Source: Sistotremastrum niveocremeum HHB9708
Taxonomy: Eukaryota; Basidiomycota; Agaricomycetes; Sistotremastrales; Sistotremastraceae
Assembly: GCA_001630475.1 (NCBI GenBank)
Contig: KV419397.1
Location: 128,393 to 192,392, forward strand
Direction of reading: 5' to 3'
DNA length: 64,000 bases
Shown in pieces: positions 24,337 through 47,731 of the stretch (position 1 is its first letter; each line of letters begins with the position of its first letter). A program made the position numbers and the translations under genes. The notes below the pieces were generated by a model, which was given only the letters and a program-made list of their open reading frames with translations, ran no database searches and was not told the DNA's origin.

Positions 24337-26401
24337 TCACAAAATTTTGGTGTTCGCAAGTTGGTTGTTCATGATGTGCTCGCGAACTTGCGCCAGGACG
24401 TGGCTCATTGACTTTCGATCCTTTGCAAAGCCAAGAGATCAGACCACGCTCAAAAATCTGACCGCAGGGTTGGAGAACTTACAATCGCCGAGGTCAAATG
24501 AACGCTGCACGGATTACGCCTGCCTCTCGGCGAACAATCTTTGTAAATCTTGAGACAATTGCTACGGACATCTGACTTCGACGTCAGTAACAGCTTGCCA
24601 AGACCCTGCCAGCAATAAAACTCACATTTGACGACTTCTTGGTATTCGTTCGGGCCCTTGTAGGTAGTGATATGATAGTTAACCTGGGTTCCGCTCTTTA
24701 TTTTGGCTTTCAAAATATCGGTCTTCATTCCGAGTTAGTTCTGTAAGATATTGCCAATTCGTGCTCACCTTGTTCAAGAAAAGAATGAACTGCACTTTCG
24801 TAAGAAGGGTGTTACTACATATCTCTCTCCATAATGCCATATTGTCTTCCTAGATATGTCCCTGATAAATACAGAAAGGTTATCTTAGTAGCTTGACGTA
24901 CCATCCGGTTGACCTTGGAATCTTCCTCTAACTGCTGATCGAACGTACTCAATGGAAAAAGGAAAATGATGGCCGTGACTGAAAGGAAATGAGAATGTTT
25001 AGCGCGATGGCAGATAATGTCTGTAATTCGCCTTACCATGTTGGAAGAAAGGCGCCCAAGTGGCTGATCAGAAACTATCAGCAACGCGTAAATCCTCATC
25101 AAGGAGAAAATACGAACCTCTCTAATCAGAAGGGAATCCAGTCAGATCAAAAATAAGATCCGAGAAACCCTGAGCCGGAGATGTGGATTTAACATACCTG
25201 TTTCCGAGCTCCGCCTACGTCAATGATGAGCCAGTCTTTGTTCCTGCTCCCGACACCTGAGAAAGGATGAGCCATCGTTTAAGGAGTCGTGATAGGAGTT
25301 ATCAAGGGGAGAGGAAACTTACCCGTTTCGATAGTGATCCGATGTTCCATCGCCCCGTGGGTCTTGAGACGTGCTTTCAAAACATCATCTGTAGAAACAA
25401 TTCGTACTTGAGGATTCTGAAAGGAACGAAATGGTGGGCACCTTCAGACGGGGAGTACGATTCCGCAGCGATGCGGTCGATATCGTCGAGGAAGCTGCCG
25501 AGAAGATTGTCATTAAAGAAGACGGTTACCGAGAATCGAAAGAAGGAACTCACAAGCCGGAGAGTTCACGCATGCTGATCTTTTGGGCTTTCAAGATGGC
25601 CTGTACGGTCTCGTTCTTCCACAAAGCCTTCATGTGGAGTGCATACTTGCGAATTGCAGCATGAGACTCCTTGATGACTTGTTTCATGGTTGCCGTAAGG
25701 GGTTGGAAGTGGGCGCTGTCAGGACCCATTTTGTAATATTGTGCCGAATGAACCAGAACTTCTGGTGACACAGACCGGTGAGTAGTCCAGACGCCGGGAG
25801 GTGTCGGGTCCGAAGGTACGGTCGGGGATGCGGGCTGGTTATCAGGACAGATACGAAGATGAAGAGTGTCTTCGACAGTAAATAGAGGAAGTAAGATCTC
25901 TCGCAGTTGACGAATATAGGTGGTGACGGTCAAATGAGGTTCGACTTCGGACCCGTGGAAGGCCAAAGCATCCTGCCTCGCCATGGCATCGAGGATCATG
26001 TGAACGGAGCGAAGAAGATTGAGCATGATGACGGCAGTCCAATGGTCGAGCTCGCTGGCGAACGCCTTCGGCGTGAAGTGGCTTTTGAATGCTTTTAGCG
26101 TTGTAGACTTTCCCGACTCAGCTTGACCTGAAGACAAAAAGGTGGCATTAACCTTTCTGACGTTTATAGAATATGACCGCGACTGACCGAGTAGTAAAAG
26201 ACTGAACTGAGGTGCCTTGTTCGCTAACAGCGCTCGTTCTTGGGCCAGCTCCCTATCGATGGCCTGGCTTACGCGAAATGCCTCGCGTTGCTGAGCCAGA
26301 CGACGAAGCTTCTGTTCATGAGTCTCAATGGGAGCGGGAGGCCAGACGACAGAGTGAGGACGAGGGGGGTATTGTGGCTGCGACTGGATAATAACAGACA
26401 T
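24337..26401 (-). CDS. Atypical G-protein alpha subunit (copy 1)
   Basis: Twelve exons sum to 1425 bases, 474 residues: 26401-26188, 26127-25554, 25494-25442, 25388-25323, 25256-25198, 25121-25118 (4 bases), 25063-25037, 24978-24902, 24849-24769, 24722-24626, 24571-24483, 24420-24337. The G motifs are in order: P-loop GQAESGKST, switch I RLKTHGAME, G3 DVGGARKQ, G4 NKTD and G5 TSAID. The usual catalytic Gln of switch II (DVGGQ) is Ala, and there is no N-terminal MGxxxS myristoylation signal; residues 20-60 are a charged helix instead. A Pro-rich insert (about 195-215) sits in the helical domain. It should bind GTP at the membrane side of GPCR signalling, but GTP hydrolysis is probably slow. 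Such G-alpha variants are, as I recall, expanded in Agaricomycetes. Confidence 0.88.
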
Positions 26402-45683: not shown

Positions 45684-47731
45684 ATGCCCACTCGGACAAG
45701 AGCCCGCAATGACAGCGATCCATTCGAGGAAGCTCTTCGACCGCCCAGCGACGAGACCCCAGAACAAGAGCTCATCAGGAAGAGGAAGGAGACAGAGGCA
45801 AGGAGGGTGAACGATGCGATCCAAGAGGAGATCGATAGGACCGCAGCCTCGGAGAAGAAATTAACGACAATTAAACTTCTCGTCCTGGGTTCGTACTATC
45901 CCCCCTTGCATGCATCGTAAACCACTCATTAGCAACCATCTCCTTTGCAGGCCAGAGCGAATCAGGTGCGCATCCATCCATGTTCGATATGCATATATAT
46001 GCTAATCATTAGCACCATCCAGGCAAATCTACCCTCGTCAAAAACTTCCGCCTCAAATATTCCTCTCGAGTCAGTTCTCAAACCCGAACGTCTTTGGGAC
46101 GATAGTCCTTCATGTTATTGACTCTGTCATTCCTCAGGAATTTCGACAAGAGAATATAACATGGCGCTCCGTCATCCAACTCAACGTCGTACACTCAATC
46201 CTCCAGATTCTCGACGCTCTCTCCACACTCACTGATCGCCCGTCCACCTCCTACTCACCTATATCACCTCCGTCCCCCTCGTCATCTTTTTCGACGACCG
46301 ATACCCTTCCCCACTCGCGCTCAAATAGCAACGTCCAGCTGACGAACGAACAACGGGCTTTGAAACTGCGTCTAAGCCCCCTGATCCAAGTCGACCGTCT
46401 ATTACGAGATCGCATAGGCACGGAAGAGGATCAGGAATTAGGCGGCAAGTTCAGCGAGTTCGTCGTCAGAGCCGGGTCAGCTTGGAAAAGCGCCATCCAT
46501 CGACAACCAGGACGTCAGATTGGCGACGAGAATGGATCCGTGGACCAGATCTCCCATTTGATGTCAATGTGCAAGAATGATATGATCCAACTTTGGAACG
46601 ATCAAGTCATTCGGGGGTTGCGTGTTGTTAGAAAATTACGCCTTGAAGAGCGTTCTGGATTGTGAGCACGTTCAGATTGACGATGAAAAGCTAGGTACTC
46701 ACGTTGAATAGTTTCTTAGACTCGCTGGACCGAGTTTGCTCAGTGGGCTATGTCCCTACCGACGGTATGTGTGCCATTCCATATCCCACCACTCAGCGAC
46801 GCCTTCCAATTCTCATTATTTTTGCGCAGACGATGTGATAAAAGCAAGATTGCGAACATTAGGCGTGAACGAGACACGATTCAACGTGGTGTATGCACCC
46901 GGTTTGACGACTCAGTGGAGAGTATACGACGTGGGCGGAATCAAGAGTCAGGTTAGCTTTTTCCTCTAAAATTTCACATTCAGTCCCGCTAATCCCGGTT
47001 CGAATACCACTAACAGCGAGGTACGTCGTTCGTCTGAACAATTCATCACTTTGGCTGATTACTCACAGTGTACTGGGCTTCATTCTTTGACGACGTCGAC
47101 TGTATCGCTTTTATCGTCTCCATCGGCGCCTTCAATCAATATTTGGAAGAAGACCCCGAAGTCAATAGACTTGTCAGCGATTATCCTCTGTCTCTCGTCC
47201 CACTGCTAATATTTTACTCGCAGGCTGACTCTTTCGACATCTGGCATAAGATCGTAAACGCAAAGCTCCTCGCGAAAGTCCATTTACTCGTCTTTCTCAA
47301 CAAATACGATCTTCTCGAGCGCAAACTTGCTAGTGGTATACGTTTCAACAAGTATATAACGAGCTACGAGGGTCGATCAAATGATGCCACGTCTTGTACT
47401 GCATGTGCGTGCCACCCTTGTCTTCAATTCTTGCTCTCAGGCTTATGCTTGCTACTTCATAGACATCAAAACTAAACTACATAATCAATTAAGCGAATCA
47501 AAGCACGAAGTACAATCGTTCATCTGCCACGTTACATCTCTAACTGTAAGATATATGCTTCATGGTCCAATACCGTCTGATCATTCTTCTATAGAATACG
47601 ACTTCAAGTGGCCACATCTTGGCTGCAGGCGAGTCCCTCGTCTAAACATCCATTTACTCAACTGACAGTCTGACCCAGTGACCGAGCTACTTGTAACAAA
47701 GGCCCTCTCGCATACTCAACTCATCAACTGA
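45684..47731 (+). CDS. Atypical G-protein alpha subunit (copy 2)
   Basis: Twelve exons sum to 1425 bases, 474 residues, exactly as in copy 1: 45684-45888, 45951-45965, 46023-46069, 46138-46661, 46712-46764, 46830-46951, 47017-47020 (4 bases), 47069-47172, 47224-47404, 47463-47545, 47595-47628, 47679-47731. G motifs: P-loop GQSESGKST (partly on a 15-base exon), switch I RLRTLGVNE, G3 DVGGIKSQ, G4 NKYD, and G5 region TSLTN. The catalytic Gln of switch II is Ile, and the Asp after the TCA-type loop is Asn. The last intron has a GC-AG border (47629-47678); without it the C-terminus ends early, with it the protein ends TKALSHTQLIN, alignable with copy 1. There is no MGxxxS myristoylation site. Only the 966/970 and 1074 coding-base boundaries coincide with copy 1, so the duplication is old. 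Confidence 0.88.

Follow-up and report, generated by a model that had tools for sequence, protein, structure and literature searches.

Two G-alpha genes of Sistotremastrum niveocremeum HHB9708 contain, with a probability that we put at about 0.9, a real protein-coding micro-exon of 4 bases, which is most likely present in all productive transcripts. The computed basis for this reading consists of the exon anatomy, the reading frame, homology, and the recurrence of the exon in paralogues, and from these we infer both the splicing and its constitutive use. The two genes, termed copy 1 and copy 2, lie on opposite strands of the analyzed 64,000-nucleotide stretch of contig KV419397.1 (the window). 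In each of them, two introns (A and B) flank the 4 bases, which fall into the region encoding switch II.

Gene models of copy 1 and copy 2

The features of copy 1 are as follows.

24337 to 26401, minus strand: G-alpha copy 1, 12 exons, 474 amino acids, CDS of 1425 bases
25198 to 25256, minus strand: exon 5′ of the micro-exon, ending in ..DVGGARKQ
25122 to 25197, minus strand: intron A, 76 bases, phase 0, GTATGT..TTAG
25118 to 25121, minus strand: micro-exon AGAG, the sixth exon, in the best-scoring splicing
25064 to 25117, minus strand: intron B, 54 bases, phase 1, GTTCGT..TCAG
25037 to 25063, minus strand: exon 3′ of the micro-exon, TWAPFFQH..

The corresponding features of copy 2 are as follows.

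45684 to 47731, plus strand: G-alpha copy 2, 12 exons, 474 amino acids, CDS of 1425 bases (with a GC-AG last intron)
46830 to 46951, plus strand: exon 5′ of the micro-exon, ending in ..DVGGIKSQ
46952 to 47016, plus strand: intron A, 65 bases, phase 0, GTTAGC..ACAG
47017 to 47020, plus strand: micro-exon CGAG, in the best-scoring splicing
47021 to 47068, plus strand: intron B, 48 bases, phase 1, GTACGT..ACAG
47069 to 47172, plus strand: exon 3′ of the micro-exon, YWASFF..

The AGAG of copy 1 consists of the Arg codon AGA and the first base of an Ala codon, and the CGAG of copy 2 consists of the Arg codon CGA and the first base of a Val codon. The predicted joined readings are ..CAG-AGAG-CCACTTGG for copy 1 and ..CAG-CGAG-TGTACTGG for copy 2. 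A first-pass annotation of this DNA had proposed the exon AGAG at 25118 to 25121 between introns of 76 and 54 bases, a 4-base exon CGAG at the same site of copy 2, and a coding content of one Arg plus the first base of the next codon. All of this was reproduced, including the GT-AG ends of the introns, which measure 65 and 48 bases in copy 2. The annotation had also placed the end of the micro-exon at coding base 970 of 1425 in both genes, and we arrived at the same position with start codons at 26401 (copy 1) and 45684 (copy 2), both of which were picked by eye, and, in copy 2, with the GC-AG last intron. This last intron (47629 to 47678) was found by eye and appears to have the boundaries ctgcag/GCGAGT..CCCAG; with it the CDS of copy 2 comprises 1425 bases (1389 without it), and the C-terminus resembles those of other G-alphas. 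The model of copy 2 does not contain a 57-base 5′ intron, an aligner proposal that was dropped by hand.

Switch II and the predicted proteins

With the micro-exon, copies 1 and 2 read DVGGARKQRATW and DVGGIKSQRVYW, which align without gaps to DVGGQRSERKKW in L009 and L011, two canonical paralogues, and an ungapped DVGGxxxQR..W switch II is restored in both proteins. The Arg encoded by the micro-exon is kept in all 12 G-alpha genes of the genome, copies 1 and 2 counted, and its counterpart in G-alpha-i1 is the second Arg of DVGGQRSERKKW, which by numbering we take to be Arg208. As modelled, the micro-exon would provide the Arg aligned with Arg208 of G-alpha-i1 and, with it, one member of a Gly-Arg-Glu triad. 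In excerpts of two studies, the Gly203-Arg208-Glu245 triad is described as coupling GTP binding to the release of G-beta-gamma (PMC10862895, PMC12873954). An acidic partner for the triad is found in 12 of 12 genes, as Glu in L009 and L011 and as Asp in the other ten.

The P-loop, the switch-I Arg, and the DVGG and Arg of switch II are the defining marks of the G-alpha family. The P-loop reads GQAESGKST in copy 1 and GQSESGKST in copy 2, and both proteins contain AR..T and DVGG....R. Against a cut-off of 48.8 bits, the Pfam profile PF00503 (333 positions) matched copy 1 with 291.7 bits over positions 2 to 333 and copy 2 with 287.3 bits over positions 2 to 331. When the micro-exon of copy 1 was skipped, the product ended after 340 amino acids and the score fell from 291.7 to 133.2 bits. 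The Gln that stands immediately after DVGG in canonical GTPases, where it has a catalytic role, is absent from both proteins, with Ala at this position in copy 1 and Ile in copy 2. It is present in 3 of the 12 G-alpha genes of the genome and missing in 9, including copies 1 and 2. The excerpted text of PMC12873954 likewise describes this Gln as catalytic.

Tests of the predicted splicing

Splicing was modelled with a custom splice-aware aligner that works without a minimum exon length. The query of the first pass was derived mainly from L010, and that of the second pass was a profile of eight paralogues without a micro-exon at the switch-II site. In both passes, the aligner picked, unprompted, the 4-base exon in copy 1, copy 2, and L014 and an exon of 7 bases, GGGACAG, at the same place in L017; in all four genes GT-AG introns are found on both sides of the micro-exon. 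Masking the splice sites of the 4-base exon lowered the score by 18.5, 20.5, and 21.9 units in copy 1, copy 2, and L014, respectively, and masking in L017 lowered it by 15.0 to 25.2 units. Three other very small pieces returned by the aligner were rejected. The 5-base exon placed in L010 is an artefact, since the reading frame continues uninterrupted across the introns assumed there; the other two, an exon of 3 bases in L014 and a piece of 4 bases at an edge in L015, were seen in the first pass and had disappeared in a later full run.

Splicings with zero, one, or two introns between DVGG and the conserved Trp were enumerated, GC donors and intron retention included. They were scored with a splice model trained on 99 introns predicted in these genes, from which the switch-II-site introns of the four micro-exon genes were withheld and in which one 83-base flank of the L010 artefact, within the training length range, is included; the intron-rate and intron-length priors were chosen by hand. 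The micro-exon solution led the next-best splicing by 17.3 bits in copy 1, 21.2 bits in copy 2, 16.2 bits in L014, and 9.0 bits in L017, and a single-intron reading was best for L018 and L012. L013 was left out of the valid results because its intron begins within the last Gly codon, before the anchor. The intervening DNA of each micro-exon gene was also subjected to 1000 dinucleotide shuffles, in which the outer splice sites (6 bases at the start of the upstream intron and 8 at the end of the downstream one) were kept fixed and micro-exon solutions of up to 15 bases were counted. The observed micro-exon score was matched in 0 of 1000 shuffles for each of copy 1, copy 2, L014, and L017. The 4-base exon is supported in both genes of the window: among the enumerated splicings, it alone combines an intact frame, the invariant Arg, and good splice sites.

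Paralogues with both, one, or neither of the introns

Searching the genome (34.7 Mb, 111 contigs) with Pfam yielded 33 matches, which were grouped into 12 G-alpha genes and one gene that, judged by its motif, is presumably an ARF. Five genes (copy 1, copy 2, L014, L017, and L018) have intron A, in phase 0, at the switch-II site, and four (copy 1, copy 2, L014, and L012) have intron B, in phase 1. L014 is the third gene of the genome with both introns and has an AGAG exon at the same site. L018 contains A without B and L012 contains B without A, with profile position and phase unchanged in each case, and these single introns attest A and B independently of each other. L017 (minus strand) has intron A together with another intron seven bases upstream, between which the GGGACAG exon lies. 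Other introns close to the switch-II site are found in L013 and L015, and L009, L010, L011, and L016 have no intron at this site. Judged from these sequences, the 4-base exon seems to be what is left between two distinct introns that stand four bases apart, and not the result of one slid intron.

One genome thus holds five states: no intron, A only, B only, A plus B (4-base exon), and A plus C (7-base exon). The most useful feature of the case is this presence of intermediate states within a single genome, as the set forms a natural series on the origin of a micro-exon and is also suited for asking how the spliceosome copes with introns four bases apart. In a search for relatives outside the genome, one composite query of viral_contigs returned 5 pattern-matching stretches and one composite query of genome_contigs returned 73 stretches, of which 0 were confirmed in either case.

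Proposed mechanism of micro-exon splicing

In the mechanism that we propose, introns A (phase 0) and B (phase 1) would split switch-II codons four bases apart, and the bases left over between them would form the exon. Both introns could be recognized by intron definition because each of them is short and has its own splice sites; the median length of the 122 modelled introns is 56 bases. The two introns are probably removed sequentially, in either order, since four bases cannot plausibly hold two complete splicing complexes together. In copy 1, copy 2, and L014, the three exonic bases that belong to the intron B donor, GAG, all lie within the micro-exon, and pairing at this donor would therefore be independent of the order of removal. 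Four bases are no whole number of codons; when the exon is left out, the frame shifts and the protein ends shortly after DVGG, and correct inclusion is therefore required.

Alternative explanations

Copies 1 and 2 might be pseudogenes or mis-spliced genes in which the four bases are skipped and a truncated protein is formed, and very small exons are described as prone to skipping in the excerpted text of PMC4674806. Both genes, however, are otherwise open over 474 amino acids, with the P-loop and switch I in place, and the same exon is kept in three genes although the identity of copies 1 and 2 to any other paralogue does not exceed 46% in the Ras-like domain. We consider this explanation improbable.

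An equally slim chance is given to regulated inclusion, according to which skipping would serve to switch the G-alpha off by unproductive splicing, or a second GT at position +4 inside the intron A donor would be used to produce an Arg-less form. The argument for it is one of frame logic only: in copy 1, skipping truncates the protein at 340 amino acids and the +4 donor restores the frame. The +4 GT, however, is absent from copy 2, and where it is present this is because the donor has the common GTAYGT form.

The first-pass annotation had also held that the frame needs AGAG. The micro-exon is indeed the best solution, but a frame-keeping alternative formally exists in copy 1, namely one long intron without a micro-exon, reaching from the +4 GT to the acceptor of intron B. 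The +4 GT is found in copy 1 (GTTAAA) and in L014 (GTTTCC), and its use in copy 1 gives a full-length product of 474 amino acids with Val-Ser instead of Arg-Ala and a Pfam score of 287.1 bits, over which the micro-exon protein is favored by 4.6 bits only. This splicing is nevertheless the least credible of the three alternatives, as copy 2 has GC and not GT at the +4 position, training donors as weak as the +4 site or weaker number only 2/99 for copy 1, 0/99 for copy 2, and 1/99 for L014, the +4-donor model of copy 1 falls short of the micro-exon model by 21 bits, the intron required there would be 130 bases long compared to the median of 56, and the Arg kept in 12 of 12 genes would be lost.

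Origin of the exon

A tree was calculated from the Ras-like domains of the 12 G-alpha genes. In this tree, whose bootstrap had not settled, nine divergent genes were split from three canonical ones with a support of 100/100, and within the nine only one fork stands, that of L010, L016, and L017 (94/97). Of 200 bootstrap trees, 0 placed the genes with the 4-base exon on one side of a branch, apart from the A-only and B-only genes, and the 4-base state required 3 changes, a number that was as low with shuffled labels in 500 of 500 cases. As the 4-base genes are not grouped in the tree, a single recent origin is not supported by it. Two histories are conceivable: an A-plus-B state may have been ancestral with later losses, or the introns may have been gained stepwise with some repetition. 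If the exon was inherited, the low identity of copies 1 and 2 to their paralogues would suggest that it is old.

A wider proposal is that the exon was ancestral to the whole divergent G-alpha subfamily of these fungi, which lacks the Gln after DVGG, and was later reduced to single-intron and intronless states in other members, in which case this subfamily would be mis-annotated at the switch and dependent on exon inclusion. We regard this as possible but rather doubtful. Loss mediated by reverse transcripts would tend to take both introns, and the single-intron states are accordingly more readily understood as stages of a gain, which weighs somewhat against an ancestral exon. If the proposal is true, a whole signaling subfamily relies on the inclusion of four bases for its triad Arg, and the exon has survived deep divergence of the paralogues.

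Comparison with known small exons

The precedents in this section are taken from excerpts of the cited papers. The closest case in fungi is a 1-base exon in the CYP621A P450 genes of Fusarium (PMC12940212). There, too, a tiny exon lies within a conserved motif of a fungal nuclear gene, was deduced from clashing phases and from a relative that lacks introns, and was flagged by an apparent intron of more than twice the median length (PMC12940212). The Fusarium case concerns one base in a P450 gene and was established with ascomycete orthologues and sequence reads (PMC12940212), whereas the present one concerns four bases in G-alpha genes, draws on paralogues of one genome with both single-intron states, and is predicted from genomic sequence.

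A 4-base micro-exon validated by RT-PCR is described for a rice gene (PMC8831610). The plant micro-exons of 1 to 15 bases share with ours the size class, the need to keep the frame, the gaps in annotation, and the existence of relatives with and without the flanking introns; they differ in the genes concerned and in being proven by RT-PCR and RNA-seq, whereas ours are predicted (PMC8831610). Among basidiomycetes, the P450 genes of Phanerochaete chrysosporium also combine short introns with very short coding exons, the shortest of 6 bases (PMC1184071), and an 8-base exon of this species is cited in PMC12940212; these cases differ in concerning P450 and not G-alpha genes and in comprising at least 6 bases (PMC1184071). 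Arabidopsis APC11 has a 1-base exon (PMC4674806). Xlr2 of Trichoderma virens provides another micro-exon in a filamentous fungus, one whose inclusion is alternative and depends on glucose (PMC11121469). None of the titles and abstract openings searched, which cover part of the literature, names a G-alpha gene with an exon of 4 bases. The 4-base G-alpha exon is a clean new example of a class, as exons this small are already known elsewhere. Gene finders likely miss such exons, and those with a minimum exon size would mis-join the flanking exons or split G-alpha genes, and would do so at the defining switch. The first-pass annotation had suggested that models of G-alpha genes of this type may be wrong in many cases.

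Additional observations

The length of intron B is divisible by three in all four genes that contain it (54 bases in copy 1, 48 in copy 2, 84 in L014, and 51 in L012). Divisibility by three was found for 37 of the 122 modelled introns, the four B introns included, and the lengths of the latter may reflect chance. If retained, intron B introduces an in-frame stop in copy 1, copy 2, and L012; in L014 it is open, and its retention would add 28 codons inside switch II.

Copy 2 contains a second tiny exon of 15 bases (45951 to 45965, plus strand), which encodes the core of the P-loop (QSES). A 15-base exon is found at the same two intron positions in L018.
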